Of a DNA stretch of 32,032 bases, positions 7,258-27,911 are shown piece by piece. This stretch comes from an uncultured bacterium (GTDB lineage: Bacteria > Patescibacteriota > Minisyncoccia > Phycocordibacterales > UBA9973), in assembly GCA_903894565.1 (NCBI GenBank), contig CAITQP010000006.1, positions 1-32,032 of the forward strand. The letters are read 5' to 3'. The position numbers were made by a program, and so were the translations under genes. Under the pieces are notes generated by a model, which did not search any database, was not told the DNA's origin, and worked only from the letters and a program-made list of their open reading frames with translations. How positions within the stretch are numbered: position 1 is the first letter of the stretch; every line of letters starts with the position of its first letter.

Positions 7258-9745
7258 TTGTAACAGTATTACCAGCAGTGTCTGTCCCCGTGACACTTAA
7301 TTTGTTTTCACCAACAACAACACCAGTTACTTGGCTTGGGGTGAATGTGAGTAGTGGGGTACCGTTCTGTGTTGATCCAACAAAAGAATTGTTTAAAAAT
7401 ACCTCAATTTTTTGAAGGGGGAATTGTCCTGTTTCACTCACAATCACAGGAATTTGATCATCTTGTTTAAACGATTGTGTGTTTCTTGGGCTCCCTATTG
7501 TGATGTGTGGTGTGTTTGTTGATGTGTGAATATCGTCAAACCCTGCTGGTTTTTGTGATTCTGTAATACTTGGATATTTTGAGTAATTTTGAGCCCACCA
7601 ATTTTGAACAGCTGTTTCAAAATTATTATACAAAGCATCGTTTTCTGGATTTGTTGGTGTGCCATTTGTTGGATCTGTTTTGTTTACCCAATGTAAAATA
7701 TCATGCACATCAGTGATTACATATTCTTTCTGAGTTGAGAGTGGTGTTTTGTCTGTCGCGAGTTTTCCTGAAACAGTATCAACAATAAAACTCTTCCCTC
7801 CTTGCCAATACCCACGAAGTACTGGTGGGAGAGAAGTGTAATTAGGATTTATTGCTGGTTTATCAAATGTTTCATTTGGATATTTTTTAAGTGCATCTTC
7901 CATGAAAGCATGCCAGACAGGAGAGGCAGTTACCGCGACTGGCATTGAGGTATTATCATTTTTGCCAACCCAAACTCCAGCAGTGAGTGATGGTGTATAT
8001 CCAATAGCCCAGGAATCTTTGTAGTCGTTTGTTGTTCCTGTTTTTACTGCGACTTGGTGATCAGGGAAATAAAGAGAAGAATTTGCTCCAAATGTTGGAG
8101 TACGCGCAGTATTATCAGAGAGAATATCACTCATTGTAAGTGACACATCTTTTGGAAGGACTGTTACTGGATTATCTTGCCATGACTCCAATGTGTTCCC
8201 ATTTTTATCTTGTACAGATAATACACTTGAATATGGATGACGCACTCCTTCTGCTGCAAAATCACTATATGCACTTACCATTTCCAAGAGCTTCACCTCG
8301 CCACCTCCAAGCACAAGCGCGAGACCGTATCGTGATGAATCAGAGAGAGTAGTGATACCCATATCTTGAGCTGTTTTGATGGCATTCTGAACCCCAACCA
8401 TATACAACATCTTCACCGCAGGTACGTTCATTGACCGAGCGAGAGCTTCACGGATTGTCATTGGGCCATGATATTTTTGGTCATAGTTTTGAGGCATATA
8501 ACACTGATCAGTGGTGGTGCCTGGGTATGGTTTTCCGTAGGGGTCGCATTTCGCATTAAATTCAGTCGGTACATCAAAGAGTGATGTTTCTGGTGTATAC
8601 CCATCTTCAAACGCGGTTGCATACATGAATGGTTTAAAGGATGATCCTGGCTGGCGTTGCGCAGTGGTTACATTAAAATTACCGTCGATTTCTGTATCGA
8701 AATAATTACGAGAACCAACCATCGCAAGGAGTTGTCCTGTTTTTGGATCAATCGCGATAAGTCCTGCATTTTCTTTATCAATCTGTTTTTTGTCACCGGT
8801 CGTATATTCAGTAACCGCTTTTTCTGCGGACTGTTGTAGGTCGTAATCAAGTGTACTAATTACTTTGAGTCCACCTGACTCGACAACGTCAGCCCCGTAT
8901 TTTTGCTCAAGATAATCTTTGATAAAGAAAACAAAGTGAGGAGCTTTAATCCCATTTGATTGTTGTGGTTTGAATACAACTTCCTCGTTTTTTGCTTGAG
9001 TAAATTGAGTATCAGTAATAAGACTAAGGTCTCGTTCGCGAGAGAGAACAAAATTTTTTCGCGTGACGAGATCATCACGGTGCGAACCATATGGAGAGTA
9101 GTGGGTCGGCGCATTTGGAATTGCTGCGAGGTAGGCAGCTTCCGCGAGTGTTAAGTCGCTTGGGTTTTTACCAAAAAATGACTGGGCCGCCTCTTGGATT
9201 CCATAGACGTTTCCACCATAGGGAATTTCGTTGAGATAGGCTCCGAGTATTTGGTCTTTTGTGTACTCGTGTTCAAGTTTAAGCGCGAGAACAACTTCTT
9301 TTAATTTTCGAACAATTGTTTTGTCGTCGGAGAGTAAACTTTTTTTGATCACTTGTTGTGTTATTGTTGATCCACCTTGCACTGCGCCGACATGGGTGAT
9401 GTCGGCGATTAACGCACGGATCATTGCTTTTGGTTCAATACCAAAATTTTGATAGAAATTTGAATCTTCAATTGCGACTGTCGCATTTTTTATTGCCGTC
9501 CCCATGTCGGTGTAGGGGATTGAGGTACGATGGGCATCTTGACCTAGGTCATACAGCACGATTGTTCCAGTACGGTCGTAAATCTTGGTTGAATTCGTGA
9601 CTTTTCGACTATCAAACGAGCTGAAGTCTGGGAGTTTGATAAGACTGATCCAAACAAGAAGGACTCCACCAAGGAGGGCGCAAGTTCCGAGAAAAGCGAA
9701 TCCGATATTACGAAGAATATGGTGAGTTTTTGTTTGGTTGTTCAT
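7229..9745 (-). CDS. class A penicillin-binding protein (transglycosylase/transpeptidase)
   Basis: With the start at 9745 (MNNQTKTHH), the protein is 838 residues. An N-terminal cytoplasmic tail and membrane helix (IGFAFLGTCALLGGVLLVWISL) precede the GT51 transglycosylase domain, with EDSNFYQNFG near residue 95 and QGGSTITQQ near residue 130. The transpeptidase domain has SSFK (in QPGSSFKPF, active Ser near 367), SMN and KTGTT near 566. The C-terminal ~90 residues look like an Ig-like domain (ITIGSPRNTQSF to the end). It polymerises and cross-links peptidoglycan at the outer membrane face. An open frame extends to 9976, but a -10 box (TATGAT, 9753-9758) sits 7 nt before 9745, making 9745 the leaderless start. 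It is divergent from tyrS. Confidence 0.93.
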   Translation of the reverse strand: MNNQTKTHHILRNIGFAFLGTCALLGGVLLVWISLIKLPDFSSFDSRKVTNSTKIYDRTGTIVLYDLGQDAHRTSIPYTDMGTAIKNATVAIEDSNFYQNFGIEPKAMIRALIADITHVGAVQGGSTITQQVIKKSLLSDDKTIVRKLKEVVLALKLEHEYTKDQILGAYLNEIPYGGNVYGIQEAAQSFFGKNPSDLTLAEAAYLAAIPNAPTHYSPYGSHRDDLVTRKNFVLSRERDLSLITDTQFTQAKNEEVVFKPQQSNGIKAPHFVFFIKDYLEQKYGADVVESGGLKVISTLDYDLQQSAEKAVTEYTTGDKKQIDKENAGLIAIDPKTGQLLAMVGSRNYFDTEIDGNFNVTTAQRQPGSSFKPFMYATAFEDGYTPETSLFDVPTEFNAKCDPYGKPYPGTTTDQCYMPQNYDQKYHGPMTIREALARSMNVPAVKMLYMVGVQNAIKTAQDMGITTLSDSSRYGLALVLGGGEVKLLEMVSAYSDFAAEGVRHPYSSVLSVQDKNGNTLESWQDNPVTVLPKDVSLTMSDILSDNTARTPTFGANSSLYFPDHQVAVKTGTTNDYKDSWAIGYTPSLTAGVWVGKNDNTSMPVAVTASPVWHAFMEDALKKYPNETFDKPAINPNYTSLPPVLRGYWQGGKSFIVDTVSGKLATDKTPLSTQKEYVITDVHDILHWVNKTDPTNGTPTNPENDALYNNFETAVQNWWAQNYSKYPSITESQKPAGFDDIHTSTNTPHITIGSPRNTQSFKQDDQIPVIVSETGQFPLQKIEVFLNNSFVGSTQNGTPLLTFTPSQVTGVVVGENKLSVTGTDTAGNTVTTSLLITITD

Positions 9746-9752
9746 GAAAACA

Positions 9753-9758
9753 ATCATA
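9753..9758 (-). promoter_or_regulatory. -10 box of the PBP gene
   Basis: TATGAT on the minus strand ends 7 nt before the ATG at 9745, with no Shine-Dalgarno sequence. It overlaps the alternative ATG at 9757, which argues against that start. Confidence 0.5.
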
Positions 9759-9792
9759 TCACGCGCCCGAGGACAAAAAAAACCTTTTGTGG

Positions 9793-9798
9793 TAAAGT
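9793..9798 (+). promoter_or_regulatory. -10 box of tyrS
   Basis: TAAAGT ends 7 nt before the tyrS ATG at 9806, again without a Shine-Dalgarno sequence. The divergent PBP -10 box is 34 bp away. Confidence 0.4.
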
Positions 9799-9805
9799 GC
9801 ATCGT

Positions 9806-11194
9806 ATGAATACAGTGAATCTTGATGAACTTTTTTCTCGCGGGGTTGCAACATTGATCGACCCAGAAAATACGTTTCGTGAGAAAGTTGCAAAGAAGGC
9901 TCGCGGAGAATACGCGGGTGATATTGTAATAAAACTTGGTATTGATCCAACTCGACCTGATATCCATCTTGGCCATGCTGTTATCCTACGCAAACTTCGA
10001 GCATTCCAAGATATTGGGTGTAAGGTTATTTTTTTGATTGGTGACTATACATCCCTCATTGGTGATCCAACCGGAAAATCAAAAACTCGCCCAGAGATAA
10101 GCCAAGCAGAGATTCGTGCGAACATGCAGACCTACCTTGATCAGGTCGGGAAGATTCTTTCAACAGATCCAAAAGTATTTTCGTGGATTTGTAACTCAGA
10201 TTGGTTTTTGGACGTCACAGATATTGAACCAAGTGAAACAACAAAGGTTGCTATGAATATCGAGATTGAGGGGAAAAAAACTGAGTATGCTCTCGACCCA
10301 CGTTCGTTTGTGGGGAAGGCGGTATTGTTTGATAGTACTCGCATGCAGAAAACTACTTTGCACAATAAGCAAATTCATTCTGTCTCCTTCATGCGTATTT
10401 TGGGTACACTCCGTCACATCACCCATGCCCGCCTAATCGAACGCGATATGTTTCAAGATCGTATCAAAAGTGGAGCAGAGCTCCATATGCACGAAATGCT
10501 CTACCCAGTACTGCAGGGAATTGATTCCTCGCTTCTCGCGAATATCTATGGATCATGTGACCTTGAGATCGGCGGAACAGACCAGACATTCAATATGCTT
10601 ATGGGGCGCGACGTGATGAGGATGAACAAGCAGACGGAGCAAGCTGTAATAAGTATGGATATTCTCGAAGGGCTTGATGGGAAAGAAAAGATGAGTAAGT
10701 CACTCGACAATTATGTCAGTATTGCTGATGAGCCGAATGATATGTATGGCAAAATCATGTCTCTCCCCGATGCGCTTATCCCACGTTACTTTGAACTTAC
10801 AACATACACACCGCTTGCTGAAGTAACGGAGATCGCCAAAACACTTACTGATAGCCAGGTGAACCCACGTGATATCAAAATGAGACTTGCGCGCGAAATT
10901 GTTGCGATTTATCACGGAGAGCCGATTGTGAAAACCGCGGAGAATTCGTGGGTGGAAACATTTTCTGAGAAGAAAATTCCCGAGGATGTTCCCGTTGTTT
11001 CTGGTGACTTTGCGACGATCATTGATTTGATGATGCATGCTGAGGTTGCAAGCTCAAAGACAGAGGCTCGTCGATTGGTTGAAGCTGGTGCCGTGACAAA
11101 CCTTGAGCAAGAACTGAAAGTGACTGATGTTGGGGCCGTTCCACACAAAGGGACATATCGCGTTGGAAAGATGAGATTCTTTCGATTTGAATAA
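9806..11194 (+). CDS. tyrS: tyrosine--tRNA ligase
   Basis: This 462-residue class I aminoacyl-tRNA synthetase attaches tyrosine to tRNA-Tyr. Signatures seen: the HIGH motif as HLGH (residues 54-57), GDYTSLIGDPTGKS downstream, the GGTDQTFN tyrosine/ATP pocket, and KMSKS near residue 295. A C-terminal S4 RNA-binding domain starts near residue 400 (EASSKTEARRLVEAGAV). An open frame extends upstream to 9719, but that part overlaps the PBP promoter region; the -10 box at 9793-9798 puts transcription just before 9806. A strong terminator follows. Confidence 0.96.
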   Translation: MNTVNLDELFSRGVATLIDPENTFREKVAKKARGEYAGDIVIKLGIDPTRPDIHLGHAVILRKLRAFQDIGCKVIFLIGDYTSLIGDPTGKSKTRPEISQAEIRANMQTYLDQVGKILSTDPKVFSWICNSDWFLDVTDIEPSETTKVAMNIEIEGKKTEYALDPRSFVGKAVLFDSTRMQKTTLHNKQIHSVSFMRILGTLRHITHARLIERDMFQDRIKSGAELHMHEMLYPVLQGIDSSLLANIYGSCDLEIGGTDQTFNMLMGRDVMRMNKQTEQAVISMDILEGLDGKEKMSKSLDNYVSIADEPNDMYGKIMSLPDALIPRYFELTTYTPLAEVTEIAKTLTDSQVNPRDIKMRLAREIVAIYHGEPIVKTAENSWVETFSEKKIPEDVPVVSGDFATIIDLMMHAEVASSKTEARRLVEAGAVTNLEQELKVTDVGAVPHKGTYRVGKMRFFRFE

Positions 11195-13926: not shown

Positions 13927-14089
13927 GCATAAATCTCTAAGTGATCAGGCTCTTGGGCCGTATAGGATCTCGTAAAGGACGTTTTGGCTCCCGGGCTCGT
14001 TTCCGGAAGTGCTGCAGCCATCCTCCGCGGTCTCCTTACTTTTAACACCTAGCTGTTTGAAGGATTATTTAGAGATTTATGCTTTTTTT
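13927..14089 (+). ncRNA. candidate structured RNA with long closing stem (~163 nt)
   Basis: GCATAAATCTCTAA (13927-13940) and TTAGAGATTTATGC (14069-14082) form a perfect 14-bp stem joining the ends of the element, followed by seven T (14083-14089), so the closing stem doubles as a plus-strand terminator. Inside, AGGAT/ATCCT, GGCT/AGCC and CCGG/CCGG nest around a GC-rich centre (~13971-14023), flanked by two less paired strands. A possible promoter is TACGAT at 13897-13902 with TTGCGC 16 nt upstream. Size and shape (closing stem, open bubble, terminal stem) recall 6S RNA, which binds RNA polymerase, but no conserved 6S sequence can be claimed. No open frame of note is present. Confidence 0.55.
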
Positions 14090-14096
14090 CTTGCCC

Positions 14097-14221
14097 CACG
14101 CACAAAATTAAAAACTCTCTTTTGAAAAGGCAACTCGTCGCGCGTGCTCGCGCGCGAGCTTCTCGGCGCCAAGCGCCTGCGAAAGGCCTTTTTCAAAAGA
14201 GAGTTTTTAATTTTGTGCGTG
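14097..14221. repeat. 126-nt near-perfect inverted repeat (giant hairpin)
   Basis: The left arm, 14097-14131 (starts CACGCACAAAATTAAAAACT), and the right arm, 14186-14221 (ends TTTTTAATTTTGTGCGTG), pair over 35 positions with a single extra T. The arms are AT-rich, while the 54-nt centre is very GC-rich and has its own palindromes: GCTCGCGCGCGAGC (14146-14159) and GGCGC-CAA-GCGCC (14165-14177). It lies 14 nt beyond the stop of the pilus ATPase gene (minus strand) and 7 nt from the end of the candidate RNA. It could be an oversized terminator, a MITE-like element or a protein-binding cruciform. No target-site duplication was seen. Confidence 0.85.
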
Positions 14222-14235
14222 ATTCAATAACAAAA

Positions 14236-15930
14236 CTATTCTTCAGTGAGATCAACGACTGATTGGACTTCTTCGATGGAAGTGATACCGGAAAGAATTT
14301 TGACCATGCCATCTTCTTGCATATTGAAAATTCCTTGAGTTGCGGCGACGCGTTTGATTTCGCGTTCACTTGGATTGGTTGGAATTATCTTTTCAATCGC
14401 CTCATCTGTTTTGATTGCTTCAAAAATACCCATGCGTCCTTTGAATCCTGTGTGATTACATTTGTCACAACCGGGCGCAGTAAAAAGTTTGATTGGCATG
14501 TCGGCGGTGAGATTATACGAACCAATATTTTTGTTTTGATCGGACGCTTGCTTCAGGAGTTTGCGGAGGAGTGTTTCCTCTTCTGGTTTTACAGGACGCT
14601 CAACTTTACATACGGAGCAGAGTTTGCGCACAAGACGTTGTGCGATAGAGAGCGACAGAGCGGAGACTAAAATTTTTGGATTTACATCAAGGTCAATCAA
14701 ACGGGGGATGACTCCAGCCGCATTGTTGGTGTGCAGTGTTGAGAACACAATATGTCCTGTAAGCGCAGATTCAACTGCGATTTTTGCTGTTTCTCCATCA
14801 CGAATTTCTCCCACCATGATGACGTCAGGGTCCTGACGAAGTGCCGCACGCAAGCCATCGAGGAACGTGTACCCTGGCTCTACTTGTGTTTGCGTGATGC
14901 CCTCGAGGTGGTATTCCACTGGATCTTCAATCGTAATCATCTTGATTTCAGGACTGTAGATTTTGCGCAAAAACGCATACAGCGTCGTGGTTTTTCCGCT
15001 TCCTGTTGGACCAGTGATGAGAATGAGTCCATTTGGTTTTTTGATTTCTGCGTCGATGATCGTGAAGAGTCGAGGCTCGATACCCATGTTTGCGAGGTCT
15101 ACCTGGATCGATTTTGGATCGAGAATACGCATAACGATTGATTCTCCATAGGAACCGGGAATAGTAGAAGTACGCATGGAAATTTCCATGCCATTTTCAA
15201 AGATACTAAAACGTCCGTCCTGCGCCTTTGTAACGATTGTGAGTTTTAATCCTGCGATAAGTTTGATGCGTGAGTTGAGGAGGTGGTAGAGTTTTGGGTC
15301 AAGAAAAAGAATATCTTGCAGTACTCCGTCGAGACGAAAACGGACACGAGCTTGTTTTTCTTCTGGTTCGATGTGCACGTCAGAACACTGGAGAGAAATA
15401 GCTCCAGCGAGAATAACCTCAAGGAGACGAGAGGTCGCATGTGTTTCGTGTCCGGTCGTAATTGTATCAACGATACGCTTCACGTCGCCGAGTGTTTTGA
15501 TTTCTTTGGCGAGATCTTCAAGTGTTGCGCTTGAAACATCAAGTCCTCCACGACGAGATTCTTGAGCAAAAGAAATTTCTTTGTAGCGAGCCCACGCATG
15601 TTCAAGACTTGCGTGACTTGCCATGTATGGACGGGGAGTCCAGCCTTTGTGTTCGAGTTCTTCGAAGCAAGTTACGACGTCATCGCTCGATGGATCGAGA
15701 ATTGCCACAAAGACTTCCTTTCCAGAAATTTTGAAAGGGGCGACTTTGATTCTGCGAGCATCTTCTTCGGAAATAAGGCGGAGTGCCTCGTTTTGGACGG
15801 CGGTAGTCGAGAGATCAACGTAGGGAATATCGTACTTTGACGAGGCAAGGACGCTCGCAAGCGCCTCTTCTTCCTCTGCACGAAATTCCGCAATACTACG
15901 GTCTATTTTGTCATCAAAGTCTTGGGGCAT
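14236..15930 (-). CDS. type IV pilus assembly / type II secretion ATPase (PilB/GspE family)
   Basis: With the ATG at 15930 (MPQDFDDKID) the protein is 564 residues. It has an N-terminal GspE_N-like domain (residues ~25-120) and the secretion ATPase domain: SDVHIEP (183-189), Walker A GPTGSGKTT (307-315), Walker B region DPDVIMVGEIRD, His box STLHTN, and a C-terminal four-cysteine zinc site (CSVC...CDKC) before NHTGFKGRMGIFE. It powers extension of a type IV pilus or pseudopilus from the cytoplasmic face. A TTG 9 codons upstream could extend the frame, but TATACT (15944-15949) would put transcription start between the two. Partner genes pilC, pilT and pilins are not in this window. Confidence 0.93.
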   Translation of the reverse strand: MPQDFDDKIDRSIAEFRAEEEEALASVLASSKYDIPYVDLSTTAVQNEALRLISEEDARRIKVAPFKISGKEVFVAILDPSSDDVVTCFEELEHKGWTPRPYMASHASLEHAWARYKEISFAQESRRGGLDVSSATLEDLAKEIKTLGDVKRIVDTITTGHETHATSRLLEVILAGAISLQCSDVHIEPEEKQARVRFRLDGVLQDILFLDPKLYHLLNSRIKLIAGLKLTIVTKAQDGRFSIFENGMEISMRTSTIPGSYGESIVMRILDPKSIQVDLANMGIEPRLFTIIDAEIKKPNGLILITGPTGSGKTTTLYAFLRKIYSPEIKMITIEDPVEYHLEGITQTQVEPGYTFLDGLRAALRQDPDVIMVGEIRDGETAKIAVESALTGHIVFSTLHTNNAAGVIPRLIDLDVNPKILVSALSLSIAQRLVRKLCSVCKVERPVKPEEETLLRKLLKQASDQNKNIGSYNLTADMPIKLFTAPGCDKCNHTGFKGRMGIFEAIKTDEAIEKIIPTNPSEREIKRVAATQGIFNMQEDGMVKILSGITSIEEVQSVVDLTEE

Positions 15931-16959: not shown

Positions 16960-19938
16960 ATGAAAAAAATGAGTATGAAAAAAATATATTCGTATACGCT
17001 CGCTACACTTGCTGTGGGAGCTTTTATGATGCTTGCGCCGGGTGCGCAGGCTGCGTCGTTTAACGACAACTCGATTCTCGGAGCAGGCTCCGATTGTCCT
17101 GTCGTCATGGTGGCAACCCCGACTGTGGGTCGTCTTCCAAACAATTGTTATCCTACCTATGCTAGTGGAATATCGAGTAGCACGGTAAACGTGGTAATCG
17201 ATTACCACAATACGGGGACTGATGCGGCAAACAATGTCGTCATCCGTCTTTCTCCACAGACTGCAACGCAGACTTCAAGCCAGACATTCTCTGGTTCGAT
17301 CTCAGCGACAAATGCAGCTCAAGCTTCAGGAAGTGCTGCAATTAACTTTACTATTCCATCAAACCTTACATACAACTCAGTTGTCTGGTACCCAAACCAA
17401 GGTGGTTCATCGGGGCTCTCAGCGAGTGCTCTCCCAAATGGTCAGACTGGTGCTGAACTTTTTGGAAATGGTTTGAGTCTTGGAACTATTCCTGGGTATA
17501 TGGATTGTCCAGTCACTGGAACAGTTCGAAACGCTTTTTGTCACGAAGGAATGATCTTTGTGAACTTCACGGTTAGTCAGGCGCTCACTGCTTCATGTAC
17601 CGTAAATCTCACTGCGAACCCTATGAGTGTTCAGAGTGGTAGTTCGACTCAGCTCAACTGGACATCAAGTACTGGCTGTACAAGTGTTTCTGTTACTGGA
17701 TCAAATGGTTTTAACTCAAACGCATTAAACGGAAATCAATCAAGTGGCGCGTTGAATCAAACAACAACATTCTCGATCAGTGGAAGTAACGGATTCACAT
17801 CCGCTGTACCATCGTCACAGACAGTTACTGTAATCAACAACCCAACATGTACAGTAGGTATGACTCCAGGTCTTACAACTGTGCCCTATGGCGGATCAAC
17901 AAATTTGAACTGGACAAGTTCTGGTTGTAACGGAGTCACCGTCAGCGGTCCTCAAGGTACGATCGGATGGGGAGCAACCGGAAACATTAGTACTGGCGCT
18001 CTCAATACATCTTCAACTTTCGTTGTTCAAGGATACCGTGCAGACGGAACCCCTGTTCAGCAAAGTACATTTATAACTGTTGGAAACAACGCGATCTGTC
18101 GCATCTCTAACTTCACAGGAATTACTCCTGTTGTAAGCGGATCAACATCGGTATTGAGTTGGAATACACAGAATTGTACAAGTATGACAGTAACAGGAGC
18201 AAACGTTTCTGATTCTTCAAGCGCAATCGCGCGTGTTTCATCGGGTACAACAATCACGGGTGCAATTTACGGACCAGTGACTTACACGATGACGGCAACA
18301 AATGGAACTACTTCAGACTCTCAGGTTTTCACCGTCACAACAACTTACGTGAACAATGTATGTACTGCATATTTGCAGGCATACCAGACACAAGTAGTTC
18401 AGGGTGGAACAACAACACTTACCTGGACAAGCTCAAATTGTTCATATGTCACAATTTCTGGACCGAACGGAACTATCTCTTCTGCTTTCAATAGCTCAGC
18501 GACAACTGCTCCTTTGTACGGCAGTAATAGCTCAGCAACGTACACACTTGTTGCTGGCGGCACAAATACCGTCAACCAAAGTGTGACAATCTACTCTTCA
18601 TCGAACAGTGGAACAAACATCGCACCGAGCGTAACTACAAATACGGCAACTTCAACAACAAACTCAAGCGCAACATTGAATGGATATATTTCAAACAATA
18701 GTTCGGGTTGTACGTACTACTACTCATGTAACAATAGCGGTACCTACTACTTCCTTTATGGAACAAGTCAGTACAACTTGAATAGTCAGACTCCGACCCA
18801 GGTGCTTACAAATAGTTCAAGTGCAGTATCGGCATACCTTACGAACCTCATTCCAAACACAACGTACTACTTTGAACTTGTTGGAACGAATTCATACGGA
18901 ACAAGTTATGGTTCAACCCTCTCGTTTGTAACCAACGGGGGAGGATCAACAGCTTTCGCTGCGATCACCTCACTTGCGACAAACGTTGCTTCATACTCTG
19001 TACGCTTGAACGGTCTTGTTATTGCTTCTCAGCAATACTCGACTGGAACTGTGTACTTCGAATACGGAACGTCACAAGCACTTGGACGTCAGACCTCAAG
19101 TCAGACACTCTCAAGTGTGACTGCGACAAACTACTTTGACACAATCACCACAAGCCCAAACACGACTTACTACTACCGCATCGTTGCTCTCTCAGGAGGC
19201 ATGCAGTACTCAGGTTCAATCATTTCGTTTACGACACCGGATCTTACGAATAATAATCCAGTCGTGATCACGAAATATGTTTCAGGAACAGGTGGTGGTT
19301 CATCATACGTATCACTCTCGATCACTGATCAATTCCAGACAGTTGCTCCTGGTGATGCAATCACATACACAGTTAATTACCAAAACATTTCGAGTTCAAC
19401 ACTTTCAAATGCTGTGCTCAATGTGATCCTTCCAACAGGTGTTACCTTCAAGCAAGCTTCACAAGGAATGCTTACGACCAACAATACGGTCGCAGCATCG
19501 ATTGGAACACTTGCTCCACAGGCACAAGGAACGATCACAATCATGGCGGCCACAGACGCAAACGTAACGAATGGTAACAATCTTGTTACGACAGCAACAC
19601 TCGCATTTACTGCTCCTTCAAAAGCGCAGGATAGTGCGATCGCGTATGTCTTGAACAACGTTGGAACTCCAGTTATGAATGGTGTCGGACTTGCCGGTCT
19701 CGCATTCTTCGGTGCTGGATTCTTCCCAACAACATTCCTTGGATGGATTTTGCTCCTCGGACTTATCCTCCTTCTTATCCTCATCGCGCGATACTACTAC
19801 CACCGCGCAAATGCACAGCGTCTTGCGACTCAGCCAGTAGTACATCAGTACTATGGTGCTCCTCAGACGCAAGCTCAGCCAATGCAACAGCAGGCTCCGC
19901 AGAATGGTTCATACCAGGGCGATCATTTGCCTCACTAA
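16960..19938 (+). CDS. large anchored surface protein with Ig-like repeats and DUF11 domain
   Basis: This 992-residue protein has a signal peptide (residues ~1-32, ending GAQAAS). An N-terminal strand-rich domain is followed by four tandem units of ~82-88 residues beginning near 212, 296, 378 and 466. Each has one Cys near its start and one after a WTSS-like strand (for example LNWTSSTGC, LNWTSSGC, LSWNTQNC, LTWTSSNC). Two fibronectin-III-like domains (from ~554 and ~665) and a DUF11-type domain (from ~782, VAPGDAITYTVNYQNISSS) follow. A hydrophobic helix (~918-942) and a Gln-rich cytoplasmic tail end it. It looks like an S-layer or adhesion stalk, with paired cysteines suited to disulfides. 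ATG 16960 and 16969 are both possible starts. Rich in Ser, Thr and Asn throughout. Confidence 0.82.
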   Translation: MKKMSMKKIYSYTLATLAVGAFMMLAPGAQAASFNDNSILGAGSDCPVVMVATPTVGRLPNNCYPTYASGISSSTVNVVIDYHNTGTDAANNVVIRLSPQTATQTSSQTFSGSISATNAAQASGSAAINFTIPSNLTYNSVVWYPNQGGSSGLSASALPNGQTGAELFGNGLSLGTIPGYMDCPVTGTVRNAFCHEGMIFVNFTVSQALTASCTVNLTANPMSVQSGSSTQLNWTSSTGCTSVSVTGSNGFNSNALNGNQSSGALNQTTTFSISGSNGFTSAVPSSQTVTVINNPTCTVGMTPGLTTVPYGGSTNLNWTSSGCNGVTVSGPQGTIGWGATGNISTGALNTSSTFVVQGYRADGTPVQQSTFITVGNNAICRISNFTGITPVVSGSTSVLSWNTQNCTSMTVTGANVSDSSSAIARVSSGTTITGAIYGPVTYTMTATNGTTSDSQVFTVTTTYVNNVCTAYLQAYQTQVVQGGTTTLTWTSSNCSYVTISGPNGTISSAFNSSATTAPLYGSNSSATYTLVAGGTNTVNQSVTIYSSSNSGTNIAPSVTTNTATSTTNSSATLNGYISNNSSGCTYYYSCNNSGTYYFLYGTSQYNLNSQTPTQVLTNSSSAVSAYLTNLIPNTTYYFELVGTNSYGTSYGSTLSFVTNGGGSTAFAAITSLATNVASYSVRLNGLVIASQQYSTGTVYFEYGTSQALGRQTSSQTLSSVTATNYFDTITTSPNTTYYYRIVALSGGMQYSGSIISFTTPDLTNNNPVVITKYVSGTGGGSSYVSLSITDQFQTVAPGDAITYTVNYQNISSSTLSNAVLNVILPTGVTFKQASQGMLTTNNTVAASIGTLAPQAQGTITIMAATDANVTNGNNLVTTATLAFTAPSKAQDSAIAYVLNNVGTPVMNGVGLAGLAFFGAGFFPTTFLGWILLLGLILLLILIARYYYHRANAQRLATQPVVHQYYGAPQTQAQPMQQQAPQNGSYQGDHLPH

Positions 19939-20703: not shown

Positions 20704-23112
20704 ATGTCCGCAAAAACTACCCCGAAAAACTCTAAAAAGCGTCTTGTCCTCCTCGATGCTCATGCCATTATCCATCGCGCCTACCATGCGATGCCTGACT
20801 TCTCAAACTCGAAAGGCGAGCCAACGGGCGCTTTGTATGGCATCAGTGCCATGCTCATGAAGATCGCCACTGATCTCAAGCCCGACTATATCGTCGCTTG
20901 TTACGACCTTCCCCAAAAGACTTTTCGTCATGAAGCGTACGAAGCATACAAAGGTACCCGTCAAAAAGCTGACGAAGGGCTTGTGGCGCAGATCATTAGT
21001 TCACGCAGAATTTTTGAAGCATTCAATATCCCAATGTACGACGCACCTGGATTCGAGGCTGATGACATTCTCGGCACGATCGTTGAGAAAATGCATGCTG
21101 ACAAAAATATCGAGATAGTGATCGCTTCCGGCGACATGGATACGCTTCAGCTCGTTGATGGTACGAAAGTACAGGTATTTACTCTCAAGAAAGGGCTCAA
21201 CGACACGATCATGTACGACGAAGACGCAGTCCTTGCGCGCTTCGGCTTTGGTCCAAAACTTCTCCCTGACTACAAAGGTTTGCGCGGTGACCCGTCTGAC
21301 AACATTATCGGTATCGCAGGGATTGGTGAAAAAACGGCAACAGATTTGATTACACAATTCGGTTCGATCGAATCAATTTACAAAAAATTACAAAAAGATG
21401 AAGCCGAAGTCGCGAAGGTAGTGAAGCCACGCATTGTTGAACTTTTGAAAAATGGAGAAGAGGAAGCGCTCTTCTCAAAGACACTTGCCACGATTCGTCG
21501 TGATGCCCCAATTGATTTCATTGTTCCCGAAAAAACATTTCAAGAATCTGCCGACCTCGCGAAAGTCGAGACTCTCTTTCGCGAGCTTGAGTTTCGAGCG
21601 CTCACACCACGCGTACAGACACTTTTTGGGGTGAGTCCAAAAAGTGAGTTGAGCGCTGATGGCTCGACAGGCGAGAATGAGCAAAAGGAAACAATCGAGC
21701 CCGCACAATTTAAAAAACTGAGTCTCGCATTGTGGCTTCTCAATTCTGATCTTACGAACCCAACTCCTGAAGATGTTTTGTATTATTGTGGGGCAAAAAA
21801 TCTCGCCGAAGCCGAGGCCAAAATCCTTGCGGATATAAAAGACAGAGGACTTACCTATGTGTACGAAAATATCGAACTTCCAATCATGCCAATCATCGAG
21901 AGTATGGAGAAATACGGTGTGAAGCTTGATGTCAGAAAAATGGCAAAGCTCGCCGAGATTGGCCACACTGAACTCGATGGTATCGAGAAGCGCATCAAGG
22001 AATTTGCCGGGCGTGATTTTAATATCAATTCTCCAAAACAACTCGGCGAAATCCTGTTTGATGAATTGAAAGTTGGCGAAGGCACCGGAACAAAACTGAA
22101 AAAGACTGAAGGTGGCGCGCGTTCAACACGAGAAAGCGAACTCCAAAAATTGAAGGGGATGCATCCAATCATCGACGAGATTTTGCGCTATCGCGAACTC
22201 TCGAAATTACTCTCCACGTATATTGATGTGCTTCCGGTACAGGTAGATGAGGGCGGACGAATTCATGCGACATTCAATCAGGCTGGTACGACGACGGGAC
22301 GATTCAATTCACAAAATCCAAATCTTCAAAATATTCCGGCGAGCGATGGTCTCGCCAAGCAAATCCGTGAAGCATTTGTTGCTGCGCCTGGCTACAAACT
22401 CGTAGCGTTTGATTACTCCCAAATCGAGCTTCGTGTTGCTGCACTCATGTCAGGCGATGATTATTTGATCGACACGTTTGAAGCAGGCAAGGACGTGCAC
22501 TCTGCTGTCGCGAGTCGTGTATTTCACGTACCAGAAAACGAGGTGACACATGAGATGCGTCGCACGGCCAAAGTCATCAACTTCGGAATTCTCTACGGTA
22601 TGGGTGTGACTGCGCTCCAACAAAATCTTGGCACTTCGCGTAAAGAGGCGCAGGAATTTCACGATGCGTATTTCGCAAGCTTCCCAAAGATTCGTGAGTA
22701 TTCTGACAGCGTCGTTGAGTTTGCCAAGAAACACAATTATACGGAAACACTTTTTGGACGCAGACGTAATTTCAAAGACCTCCGTTCGCCGCTTCCATAT
22801 CTCCGCGCAAGTGCAGAGCGCCAAGCAGGGAACGCTCCACTCCAAGGCACAGCCGCCGACTGTATCAAGATAGCAATCCGAGAAGCAGACGAAGCACTCC
22901 GCAAGGAAAATTTGATCGAGTCCGCACACCTCGTCCTTCAAGTTCATGACGAACTCGTGTATGAAGTCAAAGAGAGCGATGTAGAAAAAGTTTCCGTGCT
23001 TGTCGAGAATGCTATGAAAAATGTGTTACCGAAAGAGTTCCTTAAGGGCCGACGCTCAGTTCCTTTCGAAGTGCATGTTTCGGCGGGCGACAATTGGGGA
23101 GAGTTGAAATAA
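20704..23112 (+). CDS. polA: DNA polymerase I
   Basis: This 802-residue protein has an N-terminal 5'-3' exonuclease domain (residues ~14-300, VLLDAHAIIHRAYHAM, FEADDILGT, and the helix-hairpin GDPSDNIIGIAGIGEKTA). A middle region of ~100 residues takes the place of the 3'-5' exonuclease and lacks its DxE motif, so proofreading is very likely absent, as in Taq polymerase. The polymerase domain has motif A DYSQIELR near 569, motif B RRTAKVINFGILYG near 618 and motif C VHDELVYEV near 746. It removes primers and fills gaps. The next gene starts 1 nt after its stop. At 802 residues it is shorter than the common 850-930. Confidence 0.97.
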   Translation: MSAKTTPKNSKKRLVLLDAHAIIHRAYHAMPDFSNSKGEPTGALYGISAMLMKIATDLKPDYIVACYDLPQKTFRHEAYEAYKGTRQKADEGLVAQIISSRRIFEAFNIPMYDAPGFEADDILGTIVEKMHADKNIEIVIASGDMDTLQLVDGTKVQVFTLKKGLNDTIMYDEDAVLARFGFGPKLLPDYKGLRGDPSDNIIGIAGIGEKTATDLITQFGSIESIYKKLQKDEAEVAKVVKPRIVELLKNGEEEALFSKTLATIRRDAPIDFIVPEKTFQESADLAKVETLFRELEFRALTPRVQTLFGVSPKSELSADGSTGENEQKETIEPAQFKKLSLALWLLNSDLTNPTPEDVLYYCGAKNLAEAEAKILADIKDRGLTYVYENIELPIMPIIESMEKYGVKLDVRKMAKLAEIGHTELDGIEKRIKEFAGRDFNINSPKQLGEILFDELKVGEGTGTKLKKTEGGARSTRESELQKLKGMHPIIDEILRYRELSKLLSTYIDVLPVQVDEGGRIHATFNQAGTTTGRFNSQNPNLQNIPASDGLAKQIREAFVAAPGYKLVAFDYSQIELRVAALMSGDDYLIDTFEAGKDVHSAVASRVFHVPENEVTHEMRRTAKVINFGILYGMGVTALQQNLGTSRKEAQEFHDAYFASFPKIREYSDSVVEFAKKHNYTETLFGRRRNFKDLRSPLPYLRASAERQAGNAPLQGTAADCIKIAIREADEALRKENLIESAHLVLQVHDELVYEVKESDVEKVSVLVENAMKNVLPKEFLKGRRSVPFEVHVSAGDNWGELK

Positions 23113-23113
23113 C

Positions 23114-23431
23114 ATGGAAAAAATTATTCTGTTAGCGTCATGCGGTATTGCTGTTGTCGGTGACAGTCTGTTTGTTTTTTATGCTAAATCAAAAGGGCAT
23201 TCATCGGCATTCTTGATTGTCGGACTTATTCTCGTTAATATTTCAAGTATTATTTGGGCGTATAGTATGCGAAAGGGTATTGAGTCTTCTATTGCGATTA
23301 CATTCTACGCACTCTTTACCGTTGCTGCTTGCTCCTCGATCGGAGTTCTTCTTTTTGGAGAGCATTTATCTCGGGTGAACACTTTTGGTATTTTTCTTGC
23401 GATCGTCGCGCTCATATTGATCGGAATTTAG
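23114..23431 (+). CDS. small four-helix membrane transporter (SMR/EamA-like)
   Basis: This 105-residue protein has four hydrophobic helices (about 4-22, 31-48, 57-79, 84-104), the size and topology of small multidrug resistance (SMR) proteins and half-EamA transporters. The segment AVVGDSLFVFYAKSKG aligns by eye with the SMR helix-1 motif AxxxEVxGxxxxKxSxG, with Asp17 in place of the proton-coupling Glu. The C-terminal helix GIFLAIVALILIGI fits the same family. It would work as a dimer exporting cations or metabolites. It begins 1 nt after the polA stop, so translation is probably coupled. The substrate is unknown. Confidence 0.6.
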   Translation: MEKIILLASCGIAVVGDSLFVFYAKSKGHSSAFLIVGLILVNISSIIWAYSMRKGIESSIAITFYALFTVAACSSIGVLLFGEHLSRVNTFGIFLAIVALILIGI

Positions 23432-23465: not shown

Positions 23466-25142
23466 ATGAAAAAAGTCTGCACAACCTGCTCGAATGAGTT
23501 CACGATTCGCCCTGAGGACGAGGTGTTTTATACTCAGGTGGATGCTCCGCTTCCGAAACTCTGTCCTGATTGTCGTATGGCGCGACGACTCGCATATCGC
23601 AATGAACGTACTTTGTACAAGCGACCTTGCGATCTGTGTCAAAAGGATAGTATCTCACTATATCCCGCAGGGACGGCCTTTCCTGTGTACTGTCATACGT
23701 GTTGGTGGAGCGATAAATGGGATCCACGAGAGCATGCAATGGACTATGACGAGAATCAGCCATTCCTTGAACAATTCCGAAAACTGCAATCCAAAGTTCC
23801 ACGCATCGCACTGCTTGTGATTGATTCTGTGCGTTGTGATTACACAAACAATGCAGCTGACAACAAAGATTGTTATCTCATTTTTGCCTCGGAACAAAAC
23901 GAAGACTCAATGTATTCGCGTCTCATAATGCGCAGTAAACAGGTGTGCGACTGCGCATTCGTTTACGACTCTGAACTCTCTTATGAATGTGTGGATTGCC
24001 GGCAGTGTTTCAAATGTTTGTATTCAGAGCAGTGTCAGAGTTCTACGGACTTACTGTTTTGTTTCGACCTGCGCGATTCTCAAAATTGTATTTTCTGTAC
24101 GAATGGTCGTCACATGAACTATTCGATCTTCAACCAGAAATGCACGAAGGAAGAATATGAACAGAAGAAGGCTGAAATCTTGAGTAGCTATGAATCAATC
24201 GAACAAGCGAAAGCTGAGTATTCGAAATTGAAAGCGCAATCAATCGTAAAATATGCAACTGCGACCAAGTGTAATAACGCGACGGGGGACTACATGTTCA
24301 ACTGCCACGAAGGTGTGCGTCTCTTCGATGCCTCTGATACAAAGAATTCTTCCTACATGGCAGACAGTGAACAGCCGATTGATTGTCAGGATTGCAACAA
24401 CGTCTACTACAAACCAGAGTTGTGCTATGACATGATGGGAATTCTTCAAACGAGCAAGTCAAAGCACTCTATTTATGTTATGTACTCGAACGAATGTGAG
24501 TACTCTGACAGCTGTTACAATTCGACAGCATGCTTCGGGTGTATTCGTTTGAACCAGGCCAAGTATTCTATTTTGAACAAAGCATATACGAAGGAAGAAT
24601 ATGACGTACTCAAACAAAAGATAGTTGCGTCGATGGTGGCAGATGGTACGTACGGAACATTTTTCCCGGGTGACATGTCTCCGCACGGATACAATGAAAC
24701 GGTTGCAATGGAACATTTTCCACTTTCAAAGGAAGAGGCACTTGCGAGGGGTTTTCGTTGGCAAGATATCTCGACGGGTACTTTTGGCAAAGAGACAGTT
24801 CCACTTACGGGAATGCCACAAACTATTGCTGAAGTCAGTGACGAAATACTCAAAAGTATTTTCGCGTGCGAGGATTGTGGTAAAAATTTTCGAGTCACCT
24901 CGAGTGAACTACAGTTCTATCGACGCCTTGGTCTTCCACTTCCACGCAAAGATTTTGAATGTCGCCACCAAGCTCGTATGAGTAAGCGCAACCCACGCAA
25001 GCTCTGGTCCCGTACCTGTATGTGCGACAAAACCAATCATACACACGAGGGTGAGTGTCCGAACGTCTTCGATACTGCGTATGCTCCAGAGAGGGTAGAG
25101 CGTGTCTATTGTGAGGCCTGCTATCAAGCAGAAATTGCTTAG
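23466..25142 (+). CDS. large cysteine-rich multi-zinc-ribbon protein of the CPR type
   Basis: This 558-residue protein has 38 cysteines, nearly all in C-x2-C or C-x(5-10)-C patterns. The N-terminal 85 residues hold three pairs (CTTC, CPDC, CDLC) and the segment FPVYCHTCWWSDKWDP. From ~115 to 215 is a dense run including CVDCRQCFKCLYSEQC. A related module recurs later (~270-365). Both modules end with a similar stretch (MNYSIFNQKCTKEEYEQKKAEI near 217 and AKYSILNKAYTKEEYDVLKQKI near 365). Two more clusters close the protein. It resembles hypothetical proteins common in Parcubacteria, often under unreliable names. No signal peptide, so cytoplasmic zinc or iron-sulfur binding is inferred. A -10-like TATCGT lies 7 nt upstream. 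Function unknown. Confidence 0.75.
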   Translation: MKKVCTTCSNEFTIRPEDEVFYTQVDAPLPKLCPDCRMARRLAYRNERTLYKRPCDLCQKDSISLYPAGTAFPVYCHTCWWSDKWDPREHAMDYDENQPFLEQFRKLQSKVPRIALLVIDSVRCDYTNNAADNKDCYLIFASEQNEDSMYSRLIMRSKQVCDCAFVYDSELSYECVDCRQCFKCLYSEQCQSSTDLLFCFDLRDSQNCIFCTNGRHMNYSIFNQKCTKEEYEQKKAEILSSYESIEQAKAEYSKLKAQSIVKYATATKCNNATGDYMFNCHEGVRLFDASDTKNSSYMADSEQPIDCQDCNNVYYKPELCYDMMGILQTSKSKHSIYVMYSNECEYSDSCYNSTACFGCIRLNQAKYSILNKAYTKEEYDVLKQKIVASMVADGTYGTFFPGDMSPHGYNETVAMEHFPLSKEEALARGFRWQDISTGTFGKETVPLTGMPQTIAEVSDEILKSIFACEDCGKNFRVTSSELQFYRRLGLPLPRKDFECRHQARMSKRNPRKLWSRTCMCDKTNHTHEGECPNVFDTAYAPERVERVYCEACYQAEIA

Positions 25143-25189
25143 CCGTACAGCGGGTTGTCGGGACACTCGCTCTAGTGTACACTTCGCGT

Positions 25190-25681
25190 ATGGATGAACA
25201 ACTCAAAAAGATAGAAGAAGCTTCGGGGCGGCTCGTTCATGAATTTCTTGCCCACTCCTATTTTGTATACCTCGCCGCCGTTGTTATTGGATTCGGCCTC
25301 GACATGATGTGGCCAATCAATTTCGCATATCTATGGACAGAGCCAGTTGGTTTCTTTTTGATTATCCTCGGCACAATTTTGTCCGTATGGGCACAAGCTT
25401 CATCTGAAAAGGGTGGTCACGTCCGATTTGAGAGCAAAGAGAAACTCGCGCACCATCACTTTAAGTACGGGCCGTATTCATATACTCGCACGCCAACACA
25501 ATATGGGCTCTTTCTCATGACACTTGGACTCGCGCTTCTATTCGGTTCCGTTTTTATGGTTATCACGACAATAATTGCCTTTTTGTTCGGCAAATTGTTC
25601 TTCATCAAAAAACAAGAAGCACACCTCGAAAAAAAATACGGCGAACCGTATCGTGAATACAAAAAGCAGGTGCGTTTTTAA
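25190..25681 (+). CDS. isoprenylcysteine/phospholipid methyltransferase-like membrane protein (ICMT/PEMT fold)
   Basis: This 163-residue protein has four membrane helices (about 22-40, 50-72, 98-118, 119-135 from the ATG at 25190). The C-terminal half carries the ICMT/PEMT signature: GPYSYTRTPTQYGLFLMTLGLALL, then a Glu-rich end with EKKYGEPYREYKKQVRF. Family members use S-adenosylmethionine to methylate lipid-like or prenyl substrates at the membrane; in bacteria the substrate is generally unknown. A GTG five codons upstream is possible, but the ATG is preferred because a -10-like TAGTGT lies between. It follows the Cys-rich gene by 47 nt and precedes holA by 15 nt. Confidence 0.75.
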   Translation: MDEQLKKIEEASGRLVHEFLAHSYFVYLAAVVIGFGLDMMWPINFAYLWTEPVGFFLIILGTILSVWAQASSEKGGHVRFESKEKLAHHHFKYGPYSYTRTPTQYGLFLMTLGLALLFGSVFMVITTIIAFLFGKLFFIKKQEAHLEKKYGEPYREYKKQVRF

Positions 25682-26704: not shown

Positions 26705-27241
26705 TTACTTTGCTTGGCGTTTTGAGAGATAGAGACAGAGGAACAAAACCAGAAATCCAATGAATCCCATGAATGGAATCGTGATGAATCCATAAGTGAA
26801 GACTTGTCGTGTGACGCAGGAGATACCATCCGCACTGCAAGGGATTGGTGATTCACCAACCCATTGAATCATAGAGTGGAATCCTGTGATGAGAAGACCA
26901 AAGGCAGTGAGACCGATCGCGTAATCAATAATCTTGCGATCGTTCTTAAAAATCGCTATTGCAAAGAGGATTACTTGAGGATAGAAAGCAACACGAGCAT
27001 ACCAACAGAGGAGGCATGGCGGATATCCAATGACATTTGAGTACACCAAGCTTCCAACTAGGGCTGCGAAGTTTATAAAGAAAGCAACACCAAGGATATT
27101 TTTGTGCACAAAGTCGATCACTGCCTTTCCATAAGGAGTTTTTGGCGTAAGGAGGGCAACAATAAGCCCAAAACTCGCGAAAATCCCTGCGAATACGGAC
27201 ACGGACATAACTTGGTCCCAAACGAGAGCAAATGGTGTCAT
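26705..27241 (-). CDS. dsbB: disulfide bond formation protein DsbB family
   Basis: This 178-residue protein has four to five membrane helices and both redox cysteine pairs: Cys76-x-x-Cys79 in PPCLLCW at the start of a helix, and Cys135...Cys142 in SPIPCSADGISCV in a periplasmic loop. DsbB reoxidises a thioredoxin-like partner and passes electrons to quinone. It starts 4 nt after the stop of a thioredoxin-like gene, its likely partner, and shares its transcript. The surface protein at 16960-19938 has regular paired cysteines and would be a natural client. A structured region with a terminator follows. Confidence 0.93.
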   Translation of the reverse strand: MTPFALVWDQVMSVSVFAGIFASFGLIVALLTPKTPYGKAVIDFVHKNILGVAFFINFAALVGSLVYSNVIGYPPCLLCWYARVAFYPQVILFAIAIFKNDRKIIDYAIGLTAFGLLITGFHSMIQWVGESPIPCSADGISCVTRQVFTYGFITIPFMGFIGFLVLFLCLYLSKRQAK

Positions 27242-27245
27242 ACGA

Positions 27246-27731
27246 TTACTTTGTTACAGCTGAAGAAGACGACGTACCTCCGAGGCTTGCGCCACTTGTG
27301 TCAGTCGCGTTTGCTGCCGCTGCTCCCGGGAGCGTACAGCCAGTCTTTTGGGAGAGCTTGGCGAGACTTTGTTCTCCGACATCACGAGTGCCATCCTTGT
27401 AGATCCATGTTGGGTAGCTTTGGATGCCTTTGTCGGTACACACTTGGGTTTGTCCGCGGGTATCTGCAGTAGAACATTCAGTATATAGTCCTTCGTTTGC
27501 AAGCTTTTGACGTGATGCATCAAGCCACTGTTCTTGCTGTTGGCAGTGAGGGCACCAGAAGGCACCATAGAATTTTGTACCATTTTGGACGAGACATTGT
27601 GCGAAATTGTCATATGTTCCAGCGGTCTTTGTCGCCCGAACGACGACACGCATGAGAACAACAATCGCGATGATAATGAGAGCGAAGATGATAATACGCA
27701 CAGTGAGAGTCTTTTTGTTGCCTGTATCCAT
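27246..27731 (-). CDS. membrane-anchored thioredoxin-like oxidoreductase
   Basis: This 161-residue protein has one N-terminal membrane helix (residues ~11-32), then a thioredoxin-like domain with active-site Cys60-Pro-His-Cys63 in FYGAFWCPHCQQQEQW and the conserved cis-proline region GIQSYPTWIYKDG. CPHC is the DsbA-type site. The domain resembles the thioredoxin module fused to VKOR in other bacteria. A low-complexity Ala/Ser/Thr tail ends it. It should sit outside the membrane and oxidise exported proteins, with DsbB (next gene, 4 nt away) recycling it. TATACT (27740-27745, minus) lies 8 nt before the ATG, giving a near-leaderless transcript. Confidence 0.88.
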   Translation of the reverse strand: MDTGNKKTLTVRIIIFALIIIAIVVLMRVVVRATKTAGTYDNFAQCLVQNGTKFYGAFWCPHCQQQEQWLDASRQKLANEGLYTECSTADTRGQTQVCTDKGIQSYPTWIYKDGTRDVGEQSLAKLSQKTGCTLPGAAAANATDTSGASLGGTSSSSAVTK

Positions 27732-27833: not shown

Positions 27834-27906
27834 CCGCCCATAGCTCAGCTGGTAGAGCAGCTCCCTTTTAAGGAGAGGGTCGCAGGTTCGATTCCTGCTG
27901 GGCGGA
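27834..27906 (+). tRNA. tRNA-Lys (anticodon UUU)
   Basis: A 73-nt cloverleaf: acceptor CCGCCCA with TGGGCGG, D stem GCTC/GAGC, anticodon loop CTTTTAA (anticodon TTT), variable loop GGGTC, T stem GCAGG/CCTGC with loop TTCGATT, discriminator A. The outermost anticodon-stem pair is a G-A mismatch and the acceptor begins with C1-G72, where bacterial tRNA-Lys usually has G1-C72. CCA is not encoded (the next bases are CAA), so it must be added by a nucleotidyltransferase. A terminator follows 5 nt later. Confidence 0.95.
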
Positions 27907-27911
27907 CAAGG

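Follow-up and report, generated by a model that had tools for sequence, protein, structure and literature searches.

A cysteine-rich treble-clef/beta-solenoid protein family of Patescibacteria is co-inherited with a VirD4-type ATPase

The stretch of DNA analysed here (the window, 32,032 nt, G000:C6:1-32032) comes from an uncultured patescibacterium with a 0.92-Mb genome and carries an intact open reading frame (ORF) that starts with ATG and codes for a 558-residue protein with 38 cysteines (Table 1). An earlier note on this DNA had described the product as a cytoplasmic protein of a Candidate Phyla Radiation (CPR)-type family of unknown function; the ORF calls show the gene to be real, the cysteine count is borne out, and the family, labelled FAM hereafter, is defined by treble clefs and beta-solenoids. 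The main clue to its function is a partner encoded outside the window: FAM is strongly linked, by co-inheritance and adjacency, to a clade of VirD4/TraG-type ATPases (ATPase1), whose locus also holds a second such ATPase (ATPase2). This genetic coupling is the new result, and no known fold or family spans the whole protein. Scripted computations covered fetched genome stretches.

Architecture and predicted fold

Alignments and AlphaFold models indicate that the protein has two treble-clef zinc fingers at each end and, between the finger pairs, a middle of two beta-solenoids with 12-residue coils. The N- and C-terminal modules are mutually homologous (hhalign 99.8%, E 4.4e-28), which the earlier note had not noticed, and so are the two solenoid halves (E 5.6e-36). 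In the N-terminal module, treble clef 2 is followed by a conserved SDxWD...FFEQ...VP segment, while in treble clef 1 of the C-terminal module of the window protein D496 replaces the usual fourth cysteine. Each solenoid half is capped in the models by an [I/L]NxxYxKEEY-type helix; the two KEEY segments form a 44-nt direct repeat (24117-24160 / 24561-24604, 77% identical), so that the two internal modules ending in KEEY, pointed out earlier, are real and correspond to the homologous solenoid halves. The linker behind the second cap contains P401, Y409-N410, and G429, which are at least 90% conserved. The structure prediction that the earlier note had proposed returns paired end fingers and two solenoids, and the models of the window protein and of a distant Peregrinibacteria member (pLDDT 86.8) agree, with a strand spacing of 12 and every third residue in the core in both. 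Parts of the solenoids are modelled less surely (pLDDT 65-77), in the window protein at residues 121-190.

Table 1. Coordinates of the FAM gene, its parts, its neighbours, and the ATPase locus (pLDDT, predicted local distance difference test; pTM, predicted template modelling score).
Feature	Position	Strand	Basis
FAM (treble-clef/beta-solenoid family member), 558 aa	23466..25142	+	ORF calls, 11 paralogues, family alignment, AlphaFold pLDDT 88.1 / pTM 0.88
N-terminal module, residues 1-112	23466..23801	+	treble clef 1 C5 C8 C33 C36 (PF13451-like); treble clef 2 C55 C58 C76 C79
Solenoid 1, residues 113-225, 12-residue coils, Cys/Ser-lined core	23802..24140	+	model strands at 194, 206, 218; Cys period 3/12; core composition
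First cap/helical linker, residues 226-262, CTKEEY motif	24141..24251	+	repeat search, model
Solenoid 2, residues 263-373	24252..24584	+	hhalign 99.9% to solenoid 1; model strands at 342, 354, 366
Second cap YTKEEY and conserved linker, residues 374-455	24585..24830	+	alignment, model
C-terminal module, residues 456-558	24831..25142	+	treble clef 1 C468 C471 C499; treble clef 2 C518 C531 C549 C552 (PF23477-like in 38/72 relatives)
polA, upstream neighbour, context	20704..23112	+	by inspection
SMR-type small multidrug transporter-like gene, context	23114..23431	+	PF00893 E 0.0014, below cut-off
PEMT/ICMT-type methyltransferase, context	25175..25681	+	Pfam PEMT E 6.6e-12; ICMT 2.9e-4
VirD4/HerA-type ATPases flanking a FAM pair	L011:2213-3706 and 7557-9971 (G000:C3)		gene order kept in many genomes

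The whole protein is unnamed in Pfam, NCBIfam, PADLOC, PDB, and PHROGs searches, and no characterised family matches its full length there or in the PDB fold search, as the description of a family of unknown function implied. The ends alone resemble named domains, namely PF13451 (zf_Tbcl) and PF23477 (zf_Tbcl_2), two probable treble clefs of about 40 residues without an assigned function. Both types occur in FAM, as a pair at either end of the chain, whereas neither the solenoids nor the architecture as a whole is covered by the Pfam, NCBIfam, and PDB entries searched. PF13451 scores 22.3 bits (E 1.3e-4) against the window protein, under its gathering cut-off of 24 bits, and matches 33 of 72 relatives (best E 2.4e-6); PF23477 matches 38 of the 72 (best 2.1e-9), the window protein not being among the matches listed. 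A LIM-domain similarity found in the PDB sequence search is confined to the C-terminal finger. Foldseek returns no solved relative (best E 0.26 and 1.4, to generic beta-helices or zinc fingers) and the BFVD fold search only zinc-ribbon fragments, so the predicted fold, with cysteine-lined 12-residue solenoids between zinc-finger pairs, has no solved relative. The beta-helix of the Tenebrio antifreeze type also has 12 residues per coil with a small inward residue (Cys/Ser/Ala) at every third position, and FAM shares both traits; however, no sequence or fold match joins the two, and FAM is cytoplasmic-looking, N/Y/D/F-rich on the outside, and carries KEEY helices and zinc fingers as caps.

Several origins were considered and rejected. 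A phage origin was discarded: the middle weakly matches phrog_15341 (31 of 72 members, function unassigned), and tblastn of the protein against phages gave nothing. The solenoid-1 consensus weakly matches Campylobacter phages (E 0.2-0.9), that of solenoid 2 has no match, and IMG/VR yields one 37-residue edge match. No plasmid origin emerged from a search with one paralogue, PADLOC detected no defence system, and a mobile element was dismissed given that no inverted repeats flank the window gene and that chromosomal synteny is conserved at the ATPase locus.

The abundance of cysteines had suggested a metal store or a redox buffer, in which the cysteine ladders of the solenoids would bind metal or form reversible disulfides, and the 3- and 12-residue stacking of the 38-cysteine chain could give inter-coil Cys4 sites. 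With few exceptions the solenoid cysteines are spaced by multiples of 3 (z in solenoid 1 about 20-30), which is beyond chance; the every-third positions are a small-residue core, occupied in solenoid 1 by C (30%) and S (22%), then by L, V, N, and T, with 0.3% Cys elsewhere, and solenoid 2 shows this pattern less strongly. Nevertheless, although 15 treble-clef cysteines are kept in 8/8 orthologues and one further cysteine of the C-terminal module in 7/8, the other 22, mostly at core positions, drift to S, T, A, V, or L even among orthologues, with retention from 0/8 (residues 161 and 344) through 1/8 (124 and 178) up to 8/8. Because conservation is complete in the fingers and so uneven in the solenoids, cysteine richness has two sources, conserved zinc fingers and interchangeable solenoid packing. 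Unlike in a metallothionein-like protein, whose ligand cysteines would be conserved along the whole chain, those of the end modules alone are conserved; the pairing of cysteines on which the earlier proposal was built thus holds at the ends and fails in the middle, and the interchange with Ser, Leu, Val, and Thr leaves a store or buffer unsupported. Moreover, a store would need neither some 15-20 ancient subfamilies nor an ATPase partner, and we regard it as highly improbable.

The family and its partner ATPase

The window genome holds 12 copies of FAM, which use about 2% of its length, so that the product is costly, as the earlier note had held, besides being cytoplasmic-looking; the other 11 copies are 32-44% identical to that of the window. 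The nearest named relatives belong to Candidatus Nomurabacteria/Paceibacterota, and further ones to Staskawicz-, Lipton-, Peregrini-, Gracili-, Uhr-, Kerfeld-, Jorgensenbacteria, and others. The family had been called frequent in Parcubacteria; it does occur across the phylum, but patchily, in 12 of 60 relatives (window genome counted) and, by strong matches, in about 22 of 287 phylum genomes, each positive genome carrying from 1 to 18 or more copies. In the family tree the copies do not group by genome, and a recent expansion was rejected on this ground; by our count from the tree there are about 15-20 ancient subfamilies, differently retained per genome and with some copies broken. One copy (L012:4599-6290, G000:C5) is split into two ORFs by an in-frame TGA and is likely a pseudogene. 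The interval between CCA-transferase and exonuclease III (L010, L121-L125) is a recurrent FAM site, occupied by different subfamilies in different genomes. Many FAM-negative genomes encode short stand-alone proteins (about 90-140 aa) whose match is confined to the C-terminal double treble clef (e.g. G165:C2:268703-268969).

When the neighbours at 80 named loci are clustered, two families outside housekeeping stand out as enriched: VirD4/HerA-type ATPases, at 18 loci, and TrmB regulators, at 13. Neighbouring genes for MreB, aminoacyl-tRNA synthetase, and CCA-transferase were set aside as local synteny of related genomes. Among the 60 relatives, with a close ATPase1 defined by 67% identity or more, ATPase1 is present in 12/12 FAM-positive genomes versus 4/48 FAM-negative ones (Fisher 1.3e-9), and these four belong to genera that also hold FAM-positive genomes. 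In the phylum sample of 287 genomes, 22 are FAM-positive and 23 carry an ATPase1-type protein, 21 being in both sets (p 1.4e-28) at a threshold of 470 bits that was chosen after inspection of the data. The prediction was therefore tested in a second, different family (f101; 74 genomes, 12 of them already in the phylum sample), where ATPase1 occurs in 39/44 FAM-positive versus 1/30 FAM-negative genomes, the latter as a fragment (p 2.4e-14). There, all 39 genomes with ATPase1 are FAM-positive, and a wide score gap separates ATPase1 (841 bits) from the next paralogue (512 bits), one truncated copy reaching 536. In genera with both states, FAM and ATPase1 mostly split together, as they do in g297, g156, and g288, and the ATPase1 of all lineages form one clade (SH-aLRT 99) with 35 rows from FAM-positive genomes or loci and three from FAM-negative congeners.

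Adjacency points the same way, FAM genes often adjoining ATPase1. In the window genome, ATPase1 and a FAM pair lie on one strand in the order ATPase1, 13 nt, FAM, 8 nt, FAM, and, further on, ATPase2, which is followed by a secreted lamin-tail-domain (LTD) protein; this order is retained in many genomes. In other genomes a FAM gene precedes ATPase1 by 7-120 nt. ATPase2 of the FAM lineages bears a PF23477 finger, as does the C-terminus of FAM. In the FAM-negative congeners G002 and G005 (L258, L259), ATPase1 is 67-68% identical to that of the window genome versus 93% in FAM-positive congeners, whereas ATPase2 (91-92%) and gdhA (84-85%) show no similar divergence, a pattern that fits the relaxed constraint expected for an ATPase1 without FAM; a third FAM-negative congener, G003, has no close ATPase1. 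Adjacency would by itself make co-transfer likely and the distribution is patchy, as if both genes were passengers of a genomic island that travel together by linkage with no functional tie. Yet the gene order varies by lineage (ATPase1-FAM in f1, FAM-ATPase1 in f101) while the association persists, G001 and G023 keep adjacent ATPase1 and ATPase2 though their FAM copies lie elsewhere, and the flanks of the locus (gdhA to the LTD protein) are conserved chromosomal synteny, so that mere linkage has very little probability.

ATPase1 shares PF02534, PF10412, and PF12696 (TraG-D_C) and the Walker motifs (A, GKSGVGKS; B, YLYVDEF) with the VirD4/TraG/TrwB proteins, and thus has the domains that characterise a coupling protein of type IV secretion systems. 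It differs from them in belonging to a separate clade that occurs with FAM and in being encoded away from VirB4 (a VirB4-type ATPase is present in the window genome, on C15, while ATPase1 is on C3), with no relaxase seen beside it; no N-terminal membrane anchor is obvious by eye in its 497-aa form. A match to HerA DUF87 (E 5e-9) could instead mean that ATPase1 is a HerA/FtsK-like DNA pump, to which FAM proteins, as nucleic-acid-binding or regulatory scaffolds, would pass DNA or RNA by clefs and rod; treble clefs often bind nucleic acids, and the window copy neighbours replication genes. However, FAM is acidic (mean net charge about -10) with neutral end modules, the solenoid face that points outward is enriched in N/Y/D/F and not in basic residues, and neither a nuclease motif nor a helicase partner such as NurA is seen beside FAM, so we consider a DNA pump unlikely. 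The RNA or ribosome binding put forward by the earlier note found no support in this analysis.

In Bartonella (Bep) and Xanthomonas (X-Tfe), effectors are encoded as tandem paralogues beside a coupling ATPase and share a conserved C-terminal module. FAM resembles them in its adjacency to, and co-inheritance with, a VirD4-type ATPase (the window copy itself being dispersed), in its runs of paralogues, which reach 10 genes within a single fetched stretch, in its conserved C-terminal module, in the lack of an evident signal peptide, and in the birth and death of genes that leaves broken copies; its members could thus be effectors exported against host or competitor cells. Conversely, FAM has no toxin, enzyme, or host-directed catalytic domain in Pfam, PADLOC, or PHROGs and no immunity gene seen, its two end modules are equally conserved, orthologues retain similar solenoids and so show no sign of an arms race, and its translocation is hypothetical. 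An effector arsenal is, on balance, a minor likelihood.

Neighbourhood of the window copy

The window copy is a dispersed family member outside the ATPase1 operon, and its polA neighbourhood therefore says little on function. It lies among housekeeping genes (in the order polA, SMR-like, FAM, PEMT/ICMT-like, holA-like; polA and holA by inspection), 34 nt behind the SMR-like gene and 32 nt ahead of the methyltransferase gene. The order given by the earlier note stands, although Pfam prefers PEMT over the proposed ICMT, whose match is below the cut-off. In a congener (L118), the order FAM, methyltransferase, holA-like is retained but the upstream side differs, with a TrmB gene divergently upstream of FAM. 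In a comparison with a congener, polA is 79% identical over 394 aa and the FAM orthologue 61%.

TrmB genes recur beside other copies: of the six TrmB genes that pass the Pfam cut-off, four have a FAM gene within 2 kb (binomial 2e-4), and in L009 and L010 (G000:C9:64-85 kb) five FAM copies are interspersed with four TrmB-family regulators. Because several copies adjoin such a regulator, the conditions of expression probably differ from member to member. L009 also holds a 92-nt direct repeat (14063-14154 / 14628-14719, 97% identical) beside two short ORFs.

Three further features of the window were recorded. At 26705-27731 (-), a DsbB homologue (PF02600 E 5.8e-11) adjoins a thioredoxin-like protein that has a membrane anchor and a CPHC motif, an oxidative folding pair near the cysteine-rich FAM gene. 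ARAGORN calls a tRNA with the anticodon tta (stop) at 27834-27907 (+), a call that most likely reflects a one-base shift in an ordinary tRNA-Lys(UUU), since the Rfam alignment shows the 7-base loop CUUUUAA. Lastly, 16960-19938 (+) codes for a secreted protein of 992 aa, repetitive and rich in Ser/Thr/Asn, in which a C-terminal transmembrane segment can be made out by eye; it is possibly a surface protein.

A proposed role in a repurposed type IV secretion system

In variable columns, paralogues at 35-40% identity are more alike at the ends than in the solenoids (0.35 vs 0.25 similarity), whereas orthologues at 70% or more are more alike in the solenoids (0.79 vs 0.68), a crossing that may partly reflect different rate distributions. 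Its simplest reading is that the ends would have a shared function and each solenoid a different, conserved partner. Since FAM and its own secretion-type ATPase are co-inherited, we propose, at somewhat short of even confidence, that the FAM repertoire serves ATPase1, the coupling-type ATPase of a repurposed type IV secretion system, as cargo or as cargo adaptor. Specifically, the treble-clef ends would dock on the ATPase1/ATPase2 machinery and the solenoid rod would recognise one specific conserved partner that differs by subfamily; because of this recognition, each paralogue could be either a transported substrate or an adaptor bringing a particular cargo to the ATPase, and the members under TrmB regulators would be expressed in a condition-dependent manner.

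Several points weigh against a role as cargo or adaptor, beside the rate effect just named. We infer physical interaction, export, and cargo from genetics and sequence, and FAM has no obvious basic secretion signal of the classical C-terminal kind. Most FAM copies, that of the window included, are dispersed away from ATPase1, and in f101 five FAM-positive genomes lack ATPase1, three of them carrying 7-18 FAM copies. VirD4-like ATPases also occur in FAM-negative genomes, and PF23477 fingers in some ATPases of FAM-negative lineages. Moreover, the type IV coupling protein (T4CP) homologue of Ca. S. epibionticum is non-essential for epibiotic growth (PMC12102498), so the ATPases of Patescibacteria may not serve secretion.

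A major question about the reduced Patescibacteria is by what means they act on host cells. Type IV secretion machinery is widespread among them, in most cases lacks a relaxase, and moves substrates that are unclear; 5,713 VirD4-like proteins are reported in 2,918 genomes, with 148 near virB4 and rare relaxases (PMC12102498; a term search of this paper for zinc and cargo found neither). FAM, whose gains and losses accompany those of its own coupling-type ATPase, offers a concrete, testable candidate for what this machinery handles. It is possible, though we hold it doubtful, that a dedicated VirD4-like ATPase clade and 1 to 18 or more adaptors or cargos, each subfamily with a conserved target of its own and some with their own TrmB, make up an undescribed export or delivery system of Patescibacteria; if so, these reduced genomes would have a modular programme for secretion or host interaction.
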